From Acidobacteriota bacterium (GTDB lineage Bacteria > Acidobacteriota > Terriglobia > Acidiferrales > UBA7541): DNA of 41,182 nucleotides. The stretch lies in NCBI GenBank assembly GCA_013286165.1, contig JABDGF010000016.1:1-41182 (forward strand). Direction: 5' to 3'. Positions within the stretch are counted from its first letter, which is position 1. Each line of letters starts with the position of its first letter. This document shows, piece by piece, positions 290 to 41,182 of this stretch. Both the position numbers and the translations under genes were made by a program. The notes below the pieces were generated by a model. That model searched no databases, had not been told where the DNA came from, and saw only the letters and a program-made list of their open reading frames with translations.

Positions 290-777
290 CGATTCACCTC
301 TCACGCGACACACTTGATACGAGTGCGCGGGCGCGGTAGTTCACTACTTGTGCGTACGGCGCGAGTGCATGCGCTGGGCCTTTTGACGTGTGCGCTAAAG
401 GCTGAGTTGCGCTGGAGTTAGAAGGTGGCGCGCGGGTGGTGCGGGGCGGCGTTGCGCGGATTTGGGATTGGGCGTGGCGATAGTGGACGCGCCTAGGCTG
501 TATATAAGGATGCGCGGCGCAGTGTTGCGGGAATGCGACGGCGCGTCCCACTAGCGGGCACGGCCTGCCAGTGCGACCGGTGCGGGTGGCACGTAAGTGG
601 CTGAGCACGCTGGGGATTGCAGTGCCGCGTTGTGGAGCGGGTCGTGCAATGCGTCGTGTGACTTAGTGTTTTGTATGTGCGATCGAAGCTTATCTTAGAG
701 AGCGGGAAGGAGCTGGCGGCCTTCCGCATTCTAAATGGTTCGGCGCTCGTTGTGGAAATTGTGCGGAGGTCTTTGGC
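290..777. other. Divergent intergenic region, no gene seen
   Basis: This 488-bp spacer separates two divergent permease genes and must contain both promoters. I see no convincing protein in any frame; the open frames here are Arg/Ser/Pro-rich and lack family features. A short perfect palindrome GTAGT-TC-ACTAC lies at 333-344 and could be an operator. A stretch near 437-460 (GGTGGTGCGGGGCGGCGTTGCGC) closely resembles one near 38361-38383, which suggests a shared intergenic repeat. No promoter box pair stands out. Confidence 0.5.
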
Positions 778-16311: not shown

Positions 16312-16340
16312 TTGACACTATGGAGGCGTGAATCTACCAT
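16312..16340 (+). promoter_or_regulatory. Promoter of propeller kinase, predicted near-leaderless
   Basis: TTGACA (16312-16317), 17 bp, TACCAT (16335-16340). The -10 ends 9 nt before the ATG at 16350, and there is no correctly spaced Shine-Dalgarno. The sequence CGTTGAC around the -35 is shared with the three kinase promoters at 31958, 35046 and 38409. Confidence 0.72.
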
Positions 16341-16349
16341 AAGCGCCAA

Positions 16350-19073
16350 ATGCCGGACCCGCAGTCTCTGATTGGCCAGACGATCTCGCACTACCGCATC
16401 CTCGAGAAACTGGGCGGGGGCGGAATGGGAGTCGTTTACAAGGCTGAAGATACCCGGCTTCGCCGTTTTGTTGCGCTGAAGTTTCTCCCACCTGCTGTTG
16501 CTCGCGACCCGCACACGCTCGCGCGTTTTCAGCGTGAGGCGCAAGCCGCATCCGCGCTGAACCATCCCAACATTTGCACGATTTATGACATCGGCGAACA
16601 GGACGGGCATCCGTTCATCGCGATGGAATATCTCGAGGGCGTGACGCTGAAGCACCGCATCGACGGGCGGGCGCTGCCGCAGGAGACGCTGCTCGCCCTG
16701 GGAATTGAAATCGCGGACGCGCTGGACGCGGCGCATACGAAGGGAATCGTGCACCGCGACATTAAGCCCGCGAATATTTTTGTTACAGAGCGCGGCACGG
16801 CGAAGATTCTGGATTTTGGGTTGGCGAAGGTGACGGGCGGCGCCGAGCAAGGCGCTGACATTACGGCGGCGACCGAGACTGCGCCGGAACATCTGACGAG
16901 TCCCGGCTCGGCGGTGGGCACCGTGGCGTATATGTCCCCGGAGCAGGTGAGCGGCAAGCCGCTGGACGCCCGGACAGATTTGTTTTCCTTTGGCGCGGTG
17001 CTGTATGAAATGGCGACGGGCGCGTTGCCGTTCCGCGGGGACACAACGGGTTTAATTTACGACTCGATTCTTAATCGAATGCCTGTGTCTGCGGTGACGC
17101 TCAATCCCGGAGCGCCGGCGGAACTGGGGCGGATCATCAACAAGGCGATCGAGAAGGATCGCGACATGCGGTACCAGCACGCGAGTGAGATGCGCGCGGA
17201 TTTGAAGCGCCTCGCACGCGATACAAGTTCGGCGCGCCACGTAAGTCTTTCGGCGCAACCTCCATTGGCGGTGACTGGTGGCGTCGAGAATAGGCAGCGA
17301 AGCGGGCGGAAGGGACCGTACGCAGCCGTGGCGTTTATCGCGCTACTCGTAATCGGAACTGGAGCGACATACCATTGGCGCGGGCTGCTCGACCGGTCGC
17401 CGAAGAAACCACTTTCAGAAAAACAACTGACACGAAACGGACCGGAGCGCCGAATCTTGAGCGAAGCGATCTCTCCCGACGGCAAGACCCTGGCGTACGC
17501 GGACGGGGTTGGATTGCACGTCCAGGTGATTGAGACGGGCGAAGTGCACGACATCGTTCCGCCGGAGGAGATCCGAGATAACGTGAATAGCGTCTTGTGG
17601 TATCCCGACGGTGTGCGGATGGTTTTGAATTTGGGCGGGGTACATACGACGGCATCGGTCTGGGAAGTTTCGATCTTCGGCGGCGCCCCCCGGAAGCTCA
17701 AAGACCGGTACAAGGCAGTTGACGTTTCTTCGCGTGACGCTTCGGTGCTGTTGACGTCGGAGGATGCGCCCGGATCGCTATGGATGTGGACACCCGGCGG
17801 CGACGCCGAAAAGAAAATCATCGACACAAAGGCGCCAATCGATACGGCCGCGTGGTCGCCGGACGGCCAATTCGTTGCATATGTGGCGAACGACAACAAC
17901 ACTGGCAGCATCCACGTGTGGTCCAGACAGAGCAATTCCAGCGCGTTAATTCTGACGGACTCCGAACTCGCGGCCTCCGATAACAACGGGGCGAGAGCTG
18001 TGTGGCTTGCCGATGGGCGGTTGGTGTTTGAAAAAATCAGCGCCGCAGAAACGGGCACATCGAATTTGTGGTGCATCCCGCTCGATCTTCGAACCGGAAA
18101 AGCGACCGGAGCCGCCTCGCAGATTACGAACTGGCACGGAGACTATGCGTGGGTGCCGAGCGCCAGCGCGGACGGCCGATTTCTAACGGTCGTCAAAGGC
18201 CACATCAAAACTGACGTGTTTGTGAGCGAATTAAAAGATAAAGGCCGCACGGTCGACGCGGGACGAAATCTCACACTCGGTGACAGCAGCGACAAGCCCG
18301 ATGCGTGGTTTCCAGACGGCCACGCGATCTTGACGACTTCACGGCGAACGGGCATGGATCAGATCTACCGCTTGTCGCTCGATGGAAGCGCCTCACCCGT
18401 GGCTCCGGATCGCGGGCTGCAATTCGACGGGCAACTTAGTCCGGACGGCACGTGGATTCTTTTCTGGTCGCAATCGGCGGATCCGACGGCCAAAACGGTA
18501 AGAATCGACCGAGTGCGATCAGGTGGGGGAACCCCGGAGGAGATTGCGGAATTCCCAGTCGACGAGACGACGTTGCTGAGCTGTCCCTCGCGAGCTGGGA
18601 GCGTTTGCGTGTTGAGCGACTGGAGAGCGAATCAGGTGGTGTTTTATGAGTTCGATCCGCTGAACGGAAAGGGAAAGGAGCTGGCGCGGACCGCGCTGGA
18701 CGAACCACGGAACCTGAGCCTGAGCGTCTCGCCCTCCGGAGGGCGCGCCATCATCTCGAGCCGCGACATGCTGAAGGGACAACTTCGGCTCGTGGACTTT
18801 CGAGACGGTTCGGCGAGGTCAATTCCGTTACCGAAGGGCTGGGAGATTTGGAGCGTCAGTTGGAACCAGGATGAAACGGCCGCGCTGATTTCACTCTGGG
18901 GGTTTGAGGCGGGAATGGCTGCGGTAACGCTCGATGGAAAAGCGACGCTACTGATCGCGGGCAAGTCGAGGAGCGAGTTTTACTACTCGCCGATCTGTTC
19001 ACCAGACGGGCGCCATTTGGCGTACGGGAAGCAGGGATGGAACGCGAACGTTTGGCTGCTGGAGAATTTTTGA
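16350..19073 (+). CDS. Membrane Ser/Thr protein kinase with C-terminal beta-propeller (907 aa)
   Basis: A PknB-type kinase fused to a sensor. The kinase domain covers about residues 15-290: glycine loop [11 protein letters not shown] (21-31), ATP-binding Lys44, HRDIKPAN with catalytic Asp137, DFG at 155-157 and [10 protein letters not shown] in the activation segment. One membrane helix lies at about 325-345. The C-terminal 550 residues contain WD40/TolB-like blade motifs ([50 protein letters not shown]), so a periplasmic propeller of about 6-8 blades is expected. It should phosphorylate Ser/Thr on cytoplasmic targets in response to an external ligand; targets are unknown. The start fits the promoter geometry. 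Unlike the three kinases at 32-41 kb, it lacks TPRs. Confidence 0.95.
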
Positions 19074-31919: not shown

Positions 31920-31957
31920 GCCTCGAGCGGGCCTGCTCGCGCTTCGTTTTAGGTTCG

Positions 31958-31986
31958 TTGACTTGCGTCGCCGCGCTCAATAAGAT
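31958..31986 (+). promoter_or_regulatory. Promoter of first tandem kinase, predicted leaderless
   Basis: TTGACT (31958-31963), 17 bp, TAAGAT (31981-31986). The -10 ends 9 nt before GTG at 31996, so transcription should start at or 1-3 nt before the start codon. No Shine-Dalgarno exists. CGTTGACTTG around the -35 is identical in the next two kinase promoters. Confidence 0.78.
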
Positions 31987-31995
31987 GAGCGGCGC

Positions 31996-34900
31996 GTGCC
32001 CAGCCCGGACTCACTGATTGGCCAATCCGTATCGCACTTCCGCATCGTCGAAAGACTCGGCGGCGGCGGTATGGGCGTCGTTTACAAAGCCGAAGACACA
32101 TCCCTCGGCCGGTTCGTCGCCCTGAAGTTCCTGCCTGACGACGTCGCGAAAGACCCGCAAGCGCTCGAACGTTTCCGCCGCGAAGCGCGCGCCGCCTCCG
32201 CGCTGAACCATCCCAACATTTGCACCATCCATGAGATCGGCGAAGACGGCGGGCGCCTATTCATCGCTATGGAATTCTTGGATGGGATGACGCTCAAGCA
32301 CCGCATCGACGGCCGCCCCATCGACATAGACACCGCAGTGTCCCTGGCGATCGAAATCGCCGACGCTCTCGACGCCGCGCACGCCGAAAATATCGTCCAC
32401 CGCGACATCAAGCCTGCGAATATTTTTGTCACCAAGCGCGGGCGCGCCAAGATTCTGGATTTTGGCCTGGCGAAAGTTGCGCCGGCTGCCAGTTCGTCGA
32501 GCCAGACTTCGGCGGCGAGCACGACGGCGGGAGACGTGGACGAGCGCGACTTGACGAGCCCCGGCTCGACGCTGGGCACCGTGGCGTACATGTCGCCGGA
32601 GCAGGCGCGCGCGAAAGAACTCGACGCGCGCAGCGATTTATTTTCGTTTGGCGCGGTGCTGTATGAAATGACCACCGGTACGCTGCCGTTTCGCGGCGAA
32701 AGCTCGGCCGTGATCTTTGCAGCGATTCTGAACTCCGCGGCAACGCCGCCGGTACGCCTGAACCCATCGGTGCCTGCCGAGCTGGAACGCATCATTAACA
32801 AGGCGCTGGAGAAAGATCGGGATCTCCGCTACCAGCACGCGTCGGAGATGCGTTCCGATTTGCAGCGGCTGAAGCGCGATTCGGATACGGGGCGATCCGC
32901 CGCGGCGAGCTCCGGAACGGTGGCCGTGCCTTCGGCCGTGGCTGGGGCGCAGGATGGGAGTTCTCGAGTCGCATCGCAGGTGTTCGTGCCCGCATCGGGA
33001 TCGGCGACAGCCGTGCAACCGCCGTCCAGCGGCGTAAACGTCGCCGCCGCCACCCCGCCGCCGAAGAAAGCGTGGAAGATCGCGGTTCCGGTTGCCGCAC
33101 TCGTCGCGGCCGCAGCCGTTGGCGCGTATTTCTACACCCATCGTCCGCAAGCGCAAGCGCTCACCGAGAAAGACACGATCGTCCTTGGCGACTTCACCAA
33201 CAACACGGGCGACGCCATTTTCGACGACACGCTGAAGACCGCGCTCAACGTCTCCTTGCGTCAATCGCCCTTCCTCAACGTGCTCTCCGACAGCGAAGTG
33301 GCGAAGAATCTGAAGCTGATGACTCGCCCCGCAGACACGAAACTCACTCCCGAAGTGGCTCGCGAACTTTGCCAGCGCGCGGACAGCAAGGCTTACATTG
33401 CCGGGACGATTGGCAGCCTCGGCAGCGAGTACGTATTGGATCTGAAGGCAGTCAACTGCCGCACCGGAGACACCGTCGCGGAGAATCAGGTGACCGCTGC
33501 GTCCAAAGAGAAAGTGCTCGACAGCCTCGGCGAAGCCGCGACGAAGCTGCGCGCCGAATTGGGCGAATCGCTGGCGACGGTGCAGAAATTGGATGTTCCA
33601 TTGGCTGAGGCCACCACCTCTTCGCTTGAAGCTTTGCAGGCACTCAGCCAAGGTCAAAAAGCGTCCAATCAAAAAGGCCCCGCCGCGGGGCTGCCTTACG
33701 ACCAGCGTGCCATCCAGCTTGATCCGAATTTTGCTGCCGGTTATGCGGCGGTGGGCAGCGATTACGTCACTCTCGGAGAGCCAGCGCGAGCCAGCGAGTA
33801 CTTCGCAAAAGCCTTTGAGTTGCGGAACCATTCGAGCGAGCGCGAAAAGCTCTCCATCGCCGGCCAGTATTATACGAATGTCACCGGCGAATTGGACAAA
33901 GCAGCTCAGACCTACCAGGAATACGCTGAGAATTATCCTCGGTCACGCGTAGGTCATAGCAATCTGGCTCTGGTGTTCGGCCAACAGGGGCAGTACGAAA
34001 AAGCTTTGGCGGCGCTGAACGAAGCGCTGCGCATTGCGCCGGACATTGCCAACTACGGTAACGCGGCAAACTTCAACCTGGCCTTGCAGCGCTTCGATGC
34101 GGCGCGGCAGAGCATCCGCGACGAGCATGCGCGAAACCTGGATGAATTCATCGCCCACAGCGCCCTCTATGCTCTCGCGTTTCTCGGATCGGATTCCGCC
34201 GCAATGGCGGAGGCGCAGAAGTGGTACGCGGGCTCGCCGGATAACGAGCTTTATGGGTTGGCGCTGGCGGCAGACACCGAGGCCTACGCCGGACGTGTGG
34301 CCAAAGCGCGCGAACTGACCAAGCGTGCTGTGGAGTCCTCACTTCGCGTGGACAGCAAAGAAAATGCGGGCATCTGGCACGCGAATGCGGCAATCCAGCA
34401 AGCCGCATACGGCTCGAGCGCGGAAGCAAAGCAGTCAGCGGCAGACGCGCTGAAACTGGCGCCAACCAGTCCGGACGTCCAGAGCGAGGCCGCGCTTGCG
34501 CTCGCCATGGCGGGCGATTCCGCACAAGCTGAATCTCTGGTGCAAAACTTAGCGAAAGCCCATCCAGTTGACACGCAGATTCAGGCGCTCTGGATCGCCC
34601 CGACTCGCGCGCAACTGGCGCTGAACAAAAAGAACGCCTCCGGCGCGTTGACCGCACTGGAAGCAGCCCCCTCGCCGCTCGAGCTCGGACAAATTTCGTT
34701 CGTGAACAATATTTCGTGTTTGTACCCCGCGTATATTCGCGGGCAGGCGTATCTCGCCGCCGGGCAAGGCACAGCGGCCGCCGCGGAATTTCAGAAGATT
34801 CTCGATCACAGCGGTATCGTGTGGAATTGCTGGACCGGCGCGCTGGCACATTTGGGCGTCGCTCGCGCCAACGCTCTCGTCGCAAAAACCTCGCAAGGCG

Positions 34901-35028
34901 CCGATGCCGACGCCGCCCGCACTCGCGCCCTAGCCGCCTACAAAGATTTCCTCGCTCTCTGGAAAGACGCCGACCCCGACGTCCCCATCCTGAAAGAAGC
35001 TAAAGCCGAATACGCCAAGCTGCAATAG
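31996..35028 (+). CDS. Ser/Thr kinase with membrane helix, TolB/FlgO-like domain and TPRs (1010 aa)
   Basis: Kinase domain at about residues 15-290: [11 protein letters not shown] (21-31), Lys44, HRDIKPAN with Asp137, DFG at 155-157 and [11 protein letters not shown] Pro/Ala/Ser-rich linker leads to a membrane helix at about 360-382 ([17 protein letters not shown]). The outer part begins [20 protein letters not shown], the opening of TolB/FlgO-like domains that often precede TPRs, then [13 protein letters not shown], and TPR-like helical repeats from about 555 to the end. Such kinases sense in the periplasm and phosphorylate cytoplasmic proteins, but targets are unknown. The GTG start fits the promoter position and has no Shine-Dalgarno. 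It is the first of three tandem paralogues. Confidence 0.95.
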
Positions 35029-35045
35029 CTGTGTATTCCACTTCG

Positions 35046-35074
35046 TTGACTTGCCCTCGCGCGGCAACTATTAT
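35046..35074 (+). promoter_or_regulatory. Promoter of second tandem kinase, predicted leaderless
   Basis: TTGACT (35046-35051), 17 bp, TATTAT (35069-35074). The -10 ends 8 nt before ATG at 35083. An alternative TTG start at 35074 lies within the -10 itself and would be untranscribed. Confidence 0.78.
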
Positions 35075-35082
35075 TGCGGCGC

Positions 35083-38000
35083 ATGGCGGAACAGGACCCT
35101 AGCCCCGTTGGCCGCACAATTTCGCATTATCGCGTCGTCGAGAAACTCGGTGGCGGCGGAATGGGCGTCGTTTACAAAGCCGAGGATTTACAGCTCGGCC
35201 GCTTCGTTGCACTGAAATTCCTGCCTTTTGACGTTGCCCACGACCCGCAAGCGCTGGAGCGATTCCGGCGCGAAGCGCGGGCGGCGTCCGCGCTGAATCA
35301 CCCCAACATCTGCACGATTCACGAGATCGGCGAAGACGCGGGACACGCGTTCATCGCCATGGAGTACCTGGAAGGGACGACGCTGAAGCACCGCATCAAC
35401 GGGCGCCCGCTCGACCTGGATCTTCTTCTCGATCTGAGCATTGAAATTGCGGATGCGCTGGACGCGGCGCATTCCAAGGGCATCATCCACCGGGACATCA
35501 AGCCGGCGAATCTTTTCGTCACCACGCGCGGGCACGCGAAGATTCTGGATTTTGGCCTCGCGAAGCAAATCGGCCTGGGCGCGAGCGACGTGACGCTGGT
35601 GAAAGACGAAACGGCTTCTACGGAAGACGGGCCGACGATCAGTGAAGCGGACCTGACGAGTCCCGGGACGACCGTTGGCACGGTGGCGTATATGTCGCCG
35701 GAGCAGGTTCGCGGCAAGTCGCTCGATGCGCGCACGGACCTTTTTAGTTTTGGCATCGTGATGTACGAAGCGGCGACGGGCGTGCTGCCGTTTCGCGGCG
35801 AGACCAGCGGCGTAATCACCGAAGCGATATTGAATCGCACGCCGCCGGCGCTGGCGCGCGTGAATCCGGATTTGCCGCCGAAGTTCGACGACGTAATTGC
35901 GAAGGCGCTGGAGAAGGATCCGAAGCTGCGCTACCAGCACGCCTCTGAAATTCATGCAGATCTGCAACGGCTGAAGCGGGATTCGAGCGCGAGCGGCCGG
36001 CGCGTTCCCACGGAAGACGAAGAGCAGCAGGGAGCTGTGGCGAGCGGAAGCGGCGGAGTGCCGCGCGCGCCGTCAGACTCCGACGCAAAAGGTTCGAGGC
36101 CGGGCTCTGGCAAGCGTCCCTCGACGCGGACGGAAGCGGCAACTTCACCTCCGGACGACGGGTCAACGTTGCGACCGAAACCGCCGGCGGGGAAGCTGAT
36201 CGCCGGTGCGGCGATTCTCGCAGCGGTGTTGGCGGCGGCCGGCTACTACTACTTCCATCAAACGCCGAAGCTCACGGCAAAAGACGTAGTGGTGCTCGGC
36301 GACTTCCTGAATACGACGGGCGACACGGTGTTCGACGGCACGCTGCGGCAGGGCCTGGCGGTGCAGCTGGAGCAGTCGCCGTTTCTTTCCTTGATGGACG
36401 ACGACCAAGTGCAGCAGACGCTGAAGATGATGCAGCAGGCGCCGGACGCGCGGCTGACGTCGGCGCTGGCGCGCGAGGTGTGCCAACGCGCGAACGCGAC
36501 GGCAACGATCGACGGCTCGATCGCTCAAATCGGGAGCGAGTACAACGTCATCGTGAAAGCGATGAACTGCAATTCGGGCGAAACGCTGGCGAGCGCTGAG
36601 GCAAGCGCGTCCGACAAAAGCCACGTGCTGGACGCGCTCAGCAAAGTGGCGACGGAGCTTCGAGGGAAGCTGGGCGAATCGCTCGCCACGGTGAAGAAAT
36701 TCGATACACCGCTGGAACAAGCGTCCACGTCGTCGCTCGAAGCGTTGCAGGCGTATAGCAAAGCCCGGGCAGCGACGGGAGCGGGAAACTTCCCGGTAGC
36801 GATTCCGCTGCTGAAGCGGGCCATCGAACTCGATCCGAATTTCGCGATGGCCTACGCTGGACTGTGCACTTCCTATCTGGATATCGGCGAGCAGGAGCTT
36901 TCGTCGCAAGCAATCTCCAAGGCGTACGAATTGCGGGACCGAGTGAGCGACCGTGAACGCTTCTACATCGAATCGCACTACGAGCAGGCCAATACCGGGA
37001 ATCTCATCAAAGGCCGTGAGATTTTTCAGGATTGGCAGAAGGCGTATCCGCGCGACCAGGTGCCCAATACCGATCTCGGCGTGATCGCTACCGAGCTGGG
37101 CGACTACGACGCCGCGTTTGAATCGGCCACCGCGGCCTTCCGGCTGAATCCCAGCGGCTTGAATTACACGAATCTGATCGGAACTTACATCGCCCTCAAC
37201 CGCCTGGATGAAGCGGCCGCCCTGGCCGCAGACGCTCAGGCGAAGAAACTCGATTCCGGATATCTGCGGATCGCGCTCTATCAAATCGCTTTTCTGCGAA
37301 ACGATCAGAAGGGGATGGCGGAGCACGTCGCATGGGCCAGAGGGAAAGCAGGAGTCGAGGATACGTTGCTCATGGCCGATTCGGACACGTTGGCCTACTT
37401 CGGCCGATACAAACAGGCGGAAGCGTTGACGCAGCAGGCTGCAGAACTGGCCGTGCGAGCGGACGAAAAAGAAACGGCGGCCATCTATTGGGGGCAGGCG
37501 TCGGCTCGAGCAGGGCTGTTCGGTGAAGCGGCCGACGCGAGGAGCAATGGGGCCAGGGCATTAGGGCTCGCGAACGCTCGCGACGCCATTTTTCTATCCG
37601 CGCTGGGCGCCGCATTCGCCGGTGACGCTGCAAAAGCGGAATCGCTGGCGGATACTTTGGCGAAGATGTCCTCGACGGACACTTTATTGAACTCGAACAA
37701 TATTCCTTCGGTTCGCGCTCAGATCGCGCTAATTCGTCACGATCCGCAGAAAGCGATCGACGAACTGAGTGTGACGCAAAAATACGAGCTCGGCCAGGTG
37801 GGAACCGGTTTGGTGAACCCGGCGCTTTATCCGACGTACATTCGCGGGAATGCGTATCTGGCGCTGAAGCAGGGGAAGGAAGCTGCGGCGGAATTCCAGA
37901 AGATCATCGATCATTCCGGCGTGGTGCTGAACAATCCGAACGCCATCATGGCGTATCTGGGATTGGCGCGGGCGTATGCGGTCGAGGGTGACGACGCGAA

Positions 38001-38103
38001 GGCGCGGGTGGCGTATCAGAATCTGTTTGCGAAATGGAAGGACGCGGACCCCGACCTGCCGGTGCTGCTGCAGGCGAAGGCGGAGTACGCGAAGTTGAAG
38101 TGA
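35083..38103 (+). CDS. Ser/Thr kinase with membrane helix, TolB/FlgO-like domain and TPRs (1006 aa)
   Basis: Second of three tandem paralogues. ATG at 35083 is preferred over an in-frame TTG 9 nt upstream. The kinase core has [11 protein letters not shown] (22-32), Lys45, HRDIKPAN with Asp138, DFG at 156-158 and the activation segment [14 protein letters not shown]. An acidic insert ([20 protein letters not shown]) lies between DFG and this segment. A membrane helix is at about 371-392 ([20 protein letters not shown]), then [20 protein letters not shown] (TolB/FlgO-like), with TPR repeats to the end ([20 protein letters not shown] and others). It is closer to the third kinase than to the first, for example through the EADLTSPGT insert and the shared GKRPSTRTE linker. 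Confidence 0.95.
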
Positions 38104-38132
38104 CGTCGTATCGCCTTGGCGATGTGGCGTCA
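38101..38132 (+). terminator. Nested hairpin overlapping the second tandem kinase stop codon
   Basis: TGACG...CGTCA encloses ATCGCC-TT-GGCGAT. The left arm includes the TGA stop. There is no T-run, so termination is plausible but unproven. Confidence 0.4.
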
Positions 38133-38408
38133 TCCTGAGACCTGATGCATCGATCCAAGGCTCTCTCTTCGATCGCGCTCTACACCCTCCACAGACAATC
38201 TCTATGCCAGTGAAAGCGCCGGCGCGTTTGCGCGGTGCTGGAGTGTGAGCGTCCTTCGTTGTGTGAAGTACTCCGCCGGGGCGGCAGGCTACTTTACGGA
38301 GCCGCGAGTACGTAAACACTCGCGTTAGCACTGCGGGGGCGGTGGTTGTGCGCTTTAAGGTGGTGCGGGCGGCGTTGCGCAGCCTTACTGGCGACCCCAC
38401 TCGTTGCG
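38133..38408. other. Intergenic region between second and third tandem kinases
   Basis: No gene is seen here. It holds a perfect 7-bp stem hairpin CGCGAGT-ACGTAAAC-ACTCGCG (38303-38324) and a GC-rich stretch near 38361-38383 that matches one at about 437-460. The spacer is much longer than the gap between the first two kinases, so an insertion or decay may have occurred. Confidence 0.5.
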
Positions 38409-38437
38409 TTGACTTGGATACGTGGGCCACATAGACT
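38409..38437 (+). promoter_or_regulatory. Promoter of third tandem kinase, predicted near-leaderless
   Basis: TTGACT (38409-38414), 17 bp, TAGACT (38432-38437). The -10 ends 10 nt before ATG at 38448; CGTTGACTTG is conserved with the other two. Confidence 0.72.
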
Positions 38438-38447
38438 CTGGCAGCCC

Positions 38448-41182
38448 ATGCCCGAAACGGATTCGCCGATTGGCCGAGTCATCTCCCATTACCGCGTCGT
38501 CGAGAAGCTTGGTGGCGGCGGAATGGGCGTCGTTTACAAGGCCGAAGACACCGACCTTGGCCGATTTGTCGCGCTGAAATTCCTGCCTTTCGATGTGACG
38601 CACGACCAGCAAGCGCTCGAGCGATTCCGGCGCGAAGCGCGCGCTGCGTCGGCGCTGAACCATCCCAACATCTGCACGATCTACGAAATCGGCCAGGCCG
38701 ACGGGCGACCTTTCATCGTGATGGAGTACATGGAAGGCGTCACGCTGAAGCACAAGATCAACGGGCGGCCGCTCGATCTCGAACTTCTGCTCGACATCAG
38801 CATCGAGATCGCCGACGCGCTGCACGCCGCGCACTCCAAGGGCATCGTCCACCGCGACATCAAGCCTGCGAATTTATTTGTTACCGAGTTGGGGCACGCG
38901 AAAATCCTCGACTTCGGCCTCGCGAAACAGATGAGCACCGCGGCCGATACGACGCTAGTGCGCGAAGACACCGCATCCACCGAAGGCGGGCCGACGGTGA
39001 GCGAAGCCGATCTCACCAGCCCCGGTACGGCGGTAGGCACGGTGGCGTATATGTCGCCGGAGCAGATTCGCGGTAAGGCTGTGGATGCGCGAACGGATCT
39101 CTTCAGTTTCGGAATTGTGATGTACGAAGCGGCGACGGGCGTGCTGCCGTTCCGCGGCGAGACCAGCGGCGTGATCACCGACGCGATTCTGAATCGCATG
39201 CCGACGGCGCTGGCGCGGGTGAATCCCGATTTGCCGCCGAAGTTCGACGATGTGATCGCGAAGGCGCTCGAGAAGGATCCCAAGTTGAGATACCAGAGCG
39301 CCGCGGAAATTCGCGCCGACTTGCAGCGACTGAAGCGCGATTCCACCGCGAGCGGCCGGCATATTCCCGCGGGAGACGAAGACGGTCAGCCAGGCGTAGC
39401 CAGTGGAAGCGGCGGCGGGTCGGGCGCGGCGTCAGGTTCGGTGTCGAGCGTCGAGAGGCCGGGATCGGGTAAGCGGCCATCGACGCGCACGGAAGTCGCG
39501 ACTACTCCTCCCGAGGATGGGGCGACGCCGAGGCCAAAACCAGCCGTCGGAAAAATAGTCGCGGGCGCAGCGATTCTCCTGGCGGTGCTGGCGGCGGGCG
39601 GCTACTACTATTTTCACCAAAAGCCGAAACTCACCGAAAAGGACGTTGTGGTGCTTGGCGAGTTTCAGAACCTGACGAGCGACACGGTGTTCGACGGAAC
39701 GCTGCGGCAGGGGCTCGCGGTGCAGCTCGAACAGTCTCCTTTTCTGGCGCTGCTGGGCGACGACAACGTGAGAAAGACGCTGGTGATGATGCAGCAACCT
39801 GGCGACGCGCGGCTCACGGCGTCGCTGGCGCGCGAGGTGTGCGAACGAGCGAACGCGTCCGCCACGATCGAAGGATCGATCGCTCAGGTTGGCACCGAAT
39901 ATACGGTGATCGCGAAAGCGGTGAATTGCCATCCGGGAGATACGCTGGCGAGCGCTCAGGCGACTGCCGCCGACAAAAACCATGTGCTCGACGCGCTCAG
40001 CAAAGTCGCTTCCGATCTTCGTGGAAAGCTCGGCGAATCTCTGGCGACGGTGAAAAAGTACGATACTCCGCTCGATGCCGCATCCACTTCCTCGCTCGAG
40101 GCGCTGCAGGCGTATGGCCGGGGGAAAACCTTGCTCTACGCCAATGACCAGGCGGGCGCCATCGTTCAGTTCAAACGCGCCATTGAGCTTGATCCCAATT
40201 TTGCGATGGCTTACGCATCCATGGGATCGGCGTACCGGACTCTCGGCGAAACGGACGCGGCGGGCAACGCGGCGCGAAAAGCTTACGAACTGCGCGACCG
40301 GGTGAGCGAGCGGGAACGCCTGTACATCGAAGCGCATTACGTCTCCGACGTCGAGGGAGACCTGGAGAAGGCAAGCCAGATTTATGAATCGTGGCAGCAG
40401 ACCTATCCGCGCGACGACGTGCCAACGAATAATCTGGCAGTGATCGATAATGAGTTAGGAGAGTATGCGAAGGCTCTGACCGGCCTACAGGCAGCGTTTC
40501 AATTGAGTCAGGATCCGCTGGCTTACAGCAATCTGGTCAGTGATTATGTCGCCAACGAGAAGATCGATGAGGCTGAGACGTTGATTCAGCAAGCGCAGGC
40601 TAACAAGGTCGATTCACCGGACCTGCGAGCCGAGATTTACGGGGTAGCATTTCTGAGGAACGACGTTGCCGGGATGAAAGCGCAGGTCGCTTGGAGCAAG
40701 GGGAAGCCGGGAGTGGAGGATTTGTTCCTGGCGACGGAGGGGGACACGGCGGCGTACGGTGGGCGGCTGAAAGAAGCGTCGAAACTCACCGAACAGGCAG
40801 CCGCATACGCAGAGCGGGAAGATCAAAAAGAAACCGGCGCTATGTATTACGCCTTAGCCGCTATTCGCGAAGGCATCTTTGGGGACAAGGGTGCAGCGCG
40901 GCGATTCGCGGAGCAGGCGCTGGCGTGGTCGAGTGGCCGCGATGTGCAAGCCCTTTCGGCGACAGGACTGGCATTCGCGGGCGATGCAGCAAGAGCCGAG
41001 CAATTCGCTACGGATCTGAGCAAAAAGCATCCCAACGACACTCTGATCCAGAAGGCGTGGGTGCCGGTGATTCGCGGAGAGATTGCCCTGAGCCGAGGGG
41101 ATTTTGAAAAGGCGTTGACCATTCTGGCTCCCGACCAGACCGACGACCTGGGATCAGTAACGTCAGGTGCGATCACGGAAAC
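38448..41182 (+). CDS. Ser/Thr kinase with TolB/FlgO-like domain and TPRs, 3' end outside window
   Basis: Third tandem paralogue, open through 911 codons to the window end. It begins [20 protein letters not shown] and has [11 protein letters not shown] (21-31), Lys44, HRDIKPAN with Asp137 and DFG at 155-157. A linker with the GKRPSTRTE motif shared with the second kinase leads to a membrane helix at about 368-388 ([19 protein letters not shown]). Then comes [20 protein letters not shown] and TPR-like repeats ([20 protein letters not shown] and more). By comparison with its 1006-residue neighbour, about 90-95 residues are missing beyond the edge. No frameshift is seen in the part present. Start and promoter spacing agree with the other kinases. 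Confidence 0.93.

Follow-up and report, generated by a model that had tools for sequence, protein, structure and literature searches.

Leaderless genes, in which a -10 element of the form TANNNT lies a few nucleotides (nt) before the start codon and no Shine-Dalgarno sequence is present, are known from Deinococcus-Thermus and Actinobacteria, according to the accessible text of two studies (Zheng et al. 2011, PMC3160421; Zhong et al. 2025, PMC12340547). In D. radiodurans, as described in the available part of the latter study (PMC12340547), the -10 motif is found in nearly a third of the genes without bias toward any pathway, lies about 6-7 base pairs (bp) from the start and can work without a -35 element. 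All three Acidobacteria genomes covered by the former were listed with leaderless genes, at 9.7-19.4% (Zheng et al. 2011, Table 2, PMC3160421), and kinases are not named in the accessible portion of that survey. Here we describe four Ser/Thr kinase genes, together with the promoters ahead of them, in a 41,182-nt stretch of an Acidobacteriota draft genome (GenBank assembly GCA_013286165.1, contig JABDGF010000016.1), hereafter the window, which is the entire contig C16 of a 2.19-Mb assembly of 120 contigs that is 55% complete. The reading we favour, at a probability of roughly 0.74, is that a subfamily of Ser/Thr kinases possesses a sigma70-type promoter class, with one copy for each gene, which would give rise to leaderless or near-leaderless messenger RNAs (mRNAs). 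An open-access literature search, in the text that was accessible, yielded no paper that we recognised as dealing with leaderless kinases or with such a promoter in Acidobacteriota.

Window kinases and their start regions

The kinases and promoters of the window are as follows.

31956-31986, plus strand: promoter of kinase 1, with CGTTGACTTG at 31956-31965, -35 TTGACT at 31958-31963, a 17-nt spacer, -10 TAAGAT at 31981-31986 and 9 nt to the GTG at 31996
31996-35028, plus strand: kinase 1, GTG start, 1010 amino acids, protein kinase domain (residues 16-281) and TPR repeats
35044-35074, plus strand: promoter of kinase 2, with CGTTGACTTG, -35 at 35046-35051, a 17-nt spacer, -10 TATTAT at 35069-35074 and 8 nt to the ATG at 35083
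35083-38103, plus strand: kinase 2, ATG start, 1006 amino acids, protein kinase domain and TPR repeats
38407-38437, plus strand: promoter of kinase 3, with CGTTGACTTG, -35 at 38409-38414, a 17-nt spacer, -10 TAGACT at 38432-38437 and 10 nt to the ATG at 38448
38448-41182, plus strand: kinase 3, ATG start, running off the contig end, protein kinase domain and TPR repeats
16312-16340, plus strand: promoter of kinase 4, with -35 TTGACA at 16312-16317, a 17-nt spacer, -10 TACCAT at 16335-16340 and 9 nt to the ATG
16350-19073, plus strand: kinase 4, ATG start, 907 amino acids, protein kinase domain and PD40/WD40-like propeller repeats

With the known bacterial Ser/Thr kinases that carry TPR or propeller parts, the four proteins share the kinase domain (PF00069, 160-170 bits against a curated cut-off of 31.7), the catalytic residues, whose K, HRD and DFG columns are invariant in an alignment of ten kinases from the same genome, and the TPR or PD40 repeats. 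They are ordinary bacterial Ser/Thr kinases, and the unusual part is the promoter, not the protein. A hydrophobic stretch, seen by eye between the kinase and TPR parts, suggests membrane proteins.

The kinase start codons were fixed by protein alignment. Direct reading and a pattern search bore out the initial annotation, which had placed three promoters with 17-nt spacings at 9, 8 and 10 nt before kinases 1-3. Its remark that these genes lack a Shine-Dalgarno sequence also holds: the 4-mers GGAG, GAGG and AGGA precede none of the three, nor the start of kinase 4. Its restriction of the layout to three kinases is correct for those genes and proved too narrow, because it is also displayed by a fourth window kinase and by most related kinases examined outside the window. 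The further statement that most other genes of the window have good Shine-Dalgarno sites is accurate for five of five open reading frames (778, 3377, 6032, 6399 and 9416) and fails at the listed starts of all nine others (12617, 14174, 15378, 26489 and 30720; on the minus strand 21946, 22918, 26416 and 30556); later in-frame starts, checked for the first five of these nine, offer a Shine-Dalgarno sequence in three (14174, 15378 and 30720).

In having TANNNT a few nt before the start and no Shine-Dalgarno sequence, the window kinases resemble the leaderless genes of Deinococcus-Thermus and Actinobacteria. Unlike the situation in D. radiodurans, the layout is nearly confined, in the sample described below, to one kinase family, the distance is 8-9 nt, and a strong, conserved -35 is present.

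Chance matches might be held responsible for the window boxes, and the -35/-10 pair alone gave 3 matches against 0.87 expected, a number attained in 12 of 100 shuffles; by itself, within one 41-kb window, this pair is weak evidence. Likewise, CGTTGACTTG with at most one mismatch was found six times in the window against 2.97 expected, which is no excess. Once tied to the start codon (TTGAC, 17-19 nt, TANNNT, 6-10 nt, RTG), however, the pattern produced 4 window matches against 0.13 expected, none of 100 shuffles reached 4, and all four precede kinases, the fourth (16312-16352) being that of kinase 4. Together with 63 boxes against 0.36 expected in the genus set introduced below, these counts led to the rejection of chance, the probability of which is negligible.

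The promoter in the genome and the genus

The window's own genome contains 21 Pkinase matches, ten of which (L007-L013, L017, L018 and L020) carry a strict box, comprising TTGAC, 17-18 nt, TANNNT and, after a further 7-10 nt, ATG or GTG. An eleventh, L006, exhibits by eye TTGACT and a non-standard CACAAT 7 nt ahead of its ATG, and the remaining ten consist of two members of the same subfamily (L015 and L021) and eight kinases of other types, which are without the box. Seven copies of the 10-mer CGTTGACTTG are present in the 2.19 Mb (three for a reversed-pattern control); six are kinase promoters, and the seventh has neither a -10 nor a kinase. A different kinase type (GTKLGPYEI and similar; L002, L005, L114 and L127) shows, by eye, TATAAT or TAAACT about 9-13 nt before the ATG and no strong -35.

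The layout is not general in this genome. The sample comprised 441 kb (20 stretches plus the window), in which a simple codon-usage caller, by which some genes such as the C11 kinase were missed or cut, recognised 292 genes, nine kinases and 283 non-kinase genes. At 6-11 nt ahead of the in-frame starts of the 283 genes that are not kinases, no TANNNT peak is visible: the rate there, 4-10 per 1000 starts, does not leave the range seen at other spacings or ahead of out-of-frame starts. Of the in-frame non-kinase starts, 149 of 709 have a Shine-Dalgarno 4-mer in front, versus 15 of 471 out-of-frame ones. Counted by gene, 134 of 276 non-kinase genes have such a 4-mer ahead of at least one in-frame start, versus one of the nine called kinases, a contrast that is small in number (p 0.04). 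The TTGAC/TANNNT pair was matched 24 times in the sample, 21 times between genes; all eight kinase-linked intergenic matches are separated from the start codon by 7-10 nt (two of the eight distances were read separately, since the caller had missed the gene or its end), against two of the other 13 within 12 nt (p 0.0002), and for the remaining 11 the first candidate start is 21-514 nt off. Leaderless initiation as a general habit of the genome was rejected for the 283 sampled non-kinase genes, a narrower start window giving the same answer. The kinases are the exception among the sampled genes, with the -10-near-start layout nearly confined to one kinase family. The genome belongs to the same phylum as the Acidobacteria with leaderless genes reported in the accessible part of PMC3160421, whereas its own 283 non-kinase genes show no such signal.

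Across the genus, 77 kinase 5' ends were compiled, the nearest to the window kinases among 503 matches in 20 genomes: 13 from the window's genome that had been selected as members of the subfamily, 24 of 30 loci, and 40 further rank-ordered matches, two being skipped. The six loci left out of the 30 were two window genes counted already and four (L222-L225) that are the best matches of low-scoring genomes. A box was found in 63 of the 77, a share that is not transferable to the remaining matches of the 503, with a spacing of 17 nt (48) or 18 nt (15), whereas 200 composition shuffles gave a mean of 0.36 boxes (maximum 2) and of 0.02 boxes with a gap of 7-11 nt. The -10 ends 7-11 nt before ATG or GTG in 52 of the 77, with a mode of 9; the gaps in the 60 boxed kinases that have such a start codon are 7 (3), 8 (13), 9 (31), 10 (4), 11 (1) and 15-84 nt (8). 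None of these 60 is preceded by GGAG, GAGG or AGGA, and four have a 4-mer of a looser set that adds AAGG and GGTG.

The promoter consensus is TTCG-TTGACTTG and AACC-TAAGAT at a spacing of 17-18 nt. The positions kept are CG before TTGACT (0.76 each), TG after it (0.78 and 0.75), AACC ahead of the -10 (0.59-0.63) and the inner AGA of the -10 (0.79, 0.59 and 0.92), and, as the box scan itself demands TTGA and TANNNT, those hexamers are partly fixed and only the other positions count as conservation found. The initial annotation had offered recent duplication as an alternative, in which the promoters are alike because the genes were lately copied. Kinases 2 and 3 are indeed sister genes (support 99), yet kinase 1 stands in another part of the tree. 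Moreover, the mean pairwise identity in the genus set is 0.82 for the -35 10-mer and 0.82 for the -10, against near-random values of 0.37 for the rest of the spacer and 0.28 for the upstream flank, and the layout is shared by many genus kinases and by 11 of 30 named relatives, of which one belongs to the genus itself. Duplication does not explain the likeness and was rejected as its main cause, being very improbable.

Two sister genomes allowed the association to be read in the reverse direction. Among 30 of their 33 CGTTGACTTG sites, 18 of the 20 with a -10 precede a kinase, judged by motif, versus none of the ten without (p 2e-6); many of these 18 also belong to the 77, and gaps of 17, 27 and 39 nt occur among them. 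This result bears on the possibility that CGTTGACTTG, which overlaps the -35, serves some unknown regulator as its operator and that the real start is elsewhere. Conserved positions reach 4 nt to the left of TTGACT and 2 nt to its right (0.46-1.11 bits), more than a plain -35; this speaks for such an operator, as does the largely kinase-linked occurrence of the 10-mer in the three genus genomes read for it. On the other hand, in the sister genomes none of the sites that lack a -10 stands ahead of a kinase, and the promoter unit, -10 included, heads unrelated genes in other genera, so that we regard an operator as improbable.

On a quick tree of 68 kinases, 32 of whose 65 inner branches are weak, the label 'gap of 5-11 nt' requires 14 changes, compared with a shuffled mean of 22.5, and none of 500 shuffles was as low; the 5-11 nt gap is clustered on the tree, yet it was gained or lost repeatedly.

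Transcription start, translation and competing explanations

All 63 boxed genus kinases have a sigma70-type layout (-35 TTGACN, a spacer of 16-18 nt and -10 TANNNT), the hexamers being required by the scan itself. The use of sigma70 and the site of transcription start are inferred, as is leaderless translation, on the basis of what is established for mRNAs of this kind. RNA polymerase would start 6-10 nt past the -10, which places the first base at the start codon or at most about 4 nt ahead of it, and the ribosome would begin on the leaderless or near-leaderless mRNA without Shine-Dalgarno pairing. A normal sigma70-type start from a -10 that ends 8-9 nt before the start codon would leave a 0-4 nt leader, in which no Shine-Dalgarno sequence could fit, and none is present. 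Leaderless or near-leaderless (0-4 nt) kinase mRNAs are thus likely, as far as sequence can tell. The base C often precedes a bacterial transcription start; it stands before the start codon in 35 of 52 kinases, which fits a start at the codon itself and is no proof of it.

Each gene would have retained its own promoter copy under selection while the paralogues diverged, and the kinase family would thereby be expressed from one promoter type. The proposal of the initial annotation that promoter type, and not an operon, is what these genes share agrees with one copy per gene in 10 of 21 own kinases and 63 of 77 genus kinases. Kinases 1-3 do not form a single operon in the sense of depending on one promoter, for each has its own, so that an operon is not needed; the promoter of kinase 2 starts 15 nt past the stop codon of kinase 1. 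A terminator scan returned 12 sites, compared with 7.5 in shuffled sequence; one falls within the promoter of kinase 2 and another at 38234-38253. Read-through between kinases 1-3 is possible. The gap upstream of kinase 3 (38104-38406) also holds a TGGTGCGGGCGGCGTTGCGCAG stretch, similar by eye to one near window positions 430-460. Co-regulation of the boxed kinases appears plausible; a shared strong sigma70-type promoter can equally mean uniform constitutive expression.

Several observations weigh against leaderless mRNAs from a kinase-specific promoter class. The box is missing in 14 of the 77 genus kinases, and L222-L225, outside the 77, are other kinase types, none of them boxed; eight of the 60 boxed kinases have gaps of 15-84 nt, and three boxed kinases are without ATG or GTG. 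In the own genome, a loose promoter lies at 5-11 nt before 4 of 709 non-kinase in-frame starts, and the small numbers behind the Shine-Dalgarno contrast count on the same side. The gap mode of 8-9 nt exceeds the 6-7 bp of the Deinococcus leaderless -10 motif (accessible text of PMC12340547), and with such a gap a start 6-7 nt past the -10 gives a leader of 1-3 nt, which is as likely as none. Relatives from outside the genus were drawn from 80 named loci. The first scan, of 79 rows, recovered 13 with a box at 4-12 nt, 11 of them in the 28 best rows (L049-L076) and two, both weak, in the remaining 51 rows. The wider scan covered 30 of the 80, namely the 25 best, three picked for a box or TTGAC already seen and two outgroup rows from other phyla: 11 have a box with a 5-11 nt gap (one of which, L052, shares the window's genus), 12 a box at 13-139 nt, and seven are unboxed.

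The same promoter could also be constrained by transcription only, with a start 1-4 nt before the codon, in which case a strong constitutive promoter would have been inherited with the kinase 5' end and neither special translational control nor co-regulation would exist. This account deserves serious attention, doubtful as we find it. It agrees with the gap mode of 8-9 instead of 6-7 nt and with the distance from the -10 to the IGxT motif, 27-32 nt in many kinases, which could be a single inherited ancestral distance. Against it, L049 and L061, although without the N-terminal extension, keep gaps of 8 and 9 nt, and kinase 2 (L009) is one codon longer with a gap of 8; owing to L049 and L061, a fixed distance from promoter to kinase domain is not sufficient as the sole constraint. 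As a separate matter, six boxed kinases that start at or near MIGxT (L273, L275, L302, L128, L147 and L176) have, as read by hand, the -10 27-30 nt ahead of IGxT, and it lies likewise 27-30 nt ahead in the near-leaderless kinases with a 7-codon extension MPDxxSL. This extension may be a former leader captured as coding sequence, an idea that L246, L258 and L266, with 18-22 nt from the -10 to IGxT, do not fit.

In other organisms, leaderless mRNAs are favoured under stress. An extension of the leaderless reading, which we consider unlikely, would be that the whole eukaryotic-like kinase family is set apart by its mode of translation, through leaderless mRNAs and a dedicated promoter class, such that the whole set of kinase sensors would rise or fall at once when the state of the ribosomes or the initiation factors change, with no dedicated regulator. 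In the lineages described so far, leaderless layouts are spread over many kinds of genes, whereas here they concern one paralogous kinase family, also in relatives within the genus, and the other sampled genes of this genome have Shine-Dalgarno starts or no start signal. This situation offers a clean natural test of the use of leaderless initiation and of how a large set of paralogues is held under one expression mode.

The promoter outside the genus

The promoter class extends beyond the genus, within which it is most closely linked to kinases and to the start codon. In three genomes from outside the genus (G021, G038 and G040), the same promoter is also found ahead of other genes at longer distances. 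As an order-wide signature of kinases only, CGTTGACTTG was rejected: in G021, which is of another genus in the same family, a kinase follows one of the seven sites that have a -10, and in G038 and G040 a kinase match follows six of 80. Non-kinase genes under a kinase-type promoter at 34-88 nt were also noticed in G004 (L299 and L323) and in G021 (L142); L299 encodes what we take, by eye, to be a GAF-like sensor, while L323 and L142 represent one small protein family, with the promoter present in both genera.

Two genomes of the same order, both of family f3, display the 10-mer in far greater number: CGTTGACTTG has 91 copies in the 3.2 Mb of G038, against 4 for the control, and 36 in G040, against 9. 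A kinase match lies downstream of 6 of the 80 sites read there and is absent from the other 74, a ratio that does not support remnants of kinase 5' ends as the source of the copies; no downstream-gene counts were taken from the gene caller in the G038 pieces, where its coding fraction is just 0.58. Of these six kinase matches, three (L176:210, L170:384 and L168, minus strand, 6905 of the reverse complement) are truncated 5' ends, the match ending at residue 24-44, as if decayed. The copies form a dispersed unit of about 40 bp, CGCGTTGACTTGCCTGCGGGCGSGGCCTARGATGGC, in which the spacer is conserved too and the flanks are unrelated (L159-L176, L177-L205 and L325-L330), and the unit looks like a promoter that has spread as a repeat. 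Some contigs of these two genomes carry several copies, for example eight in 13.5 kb.

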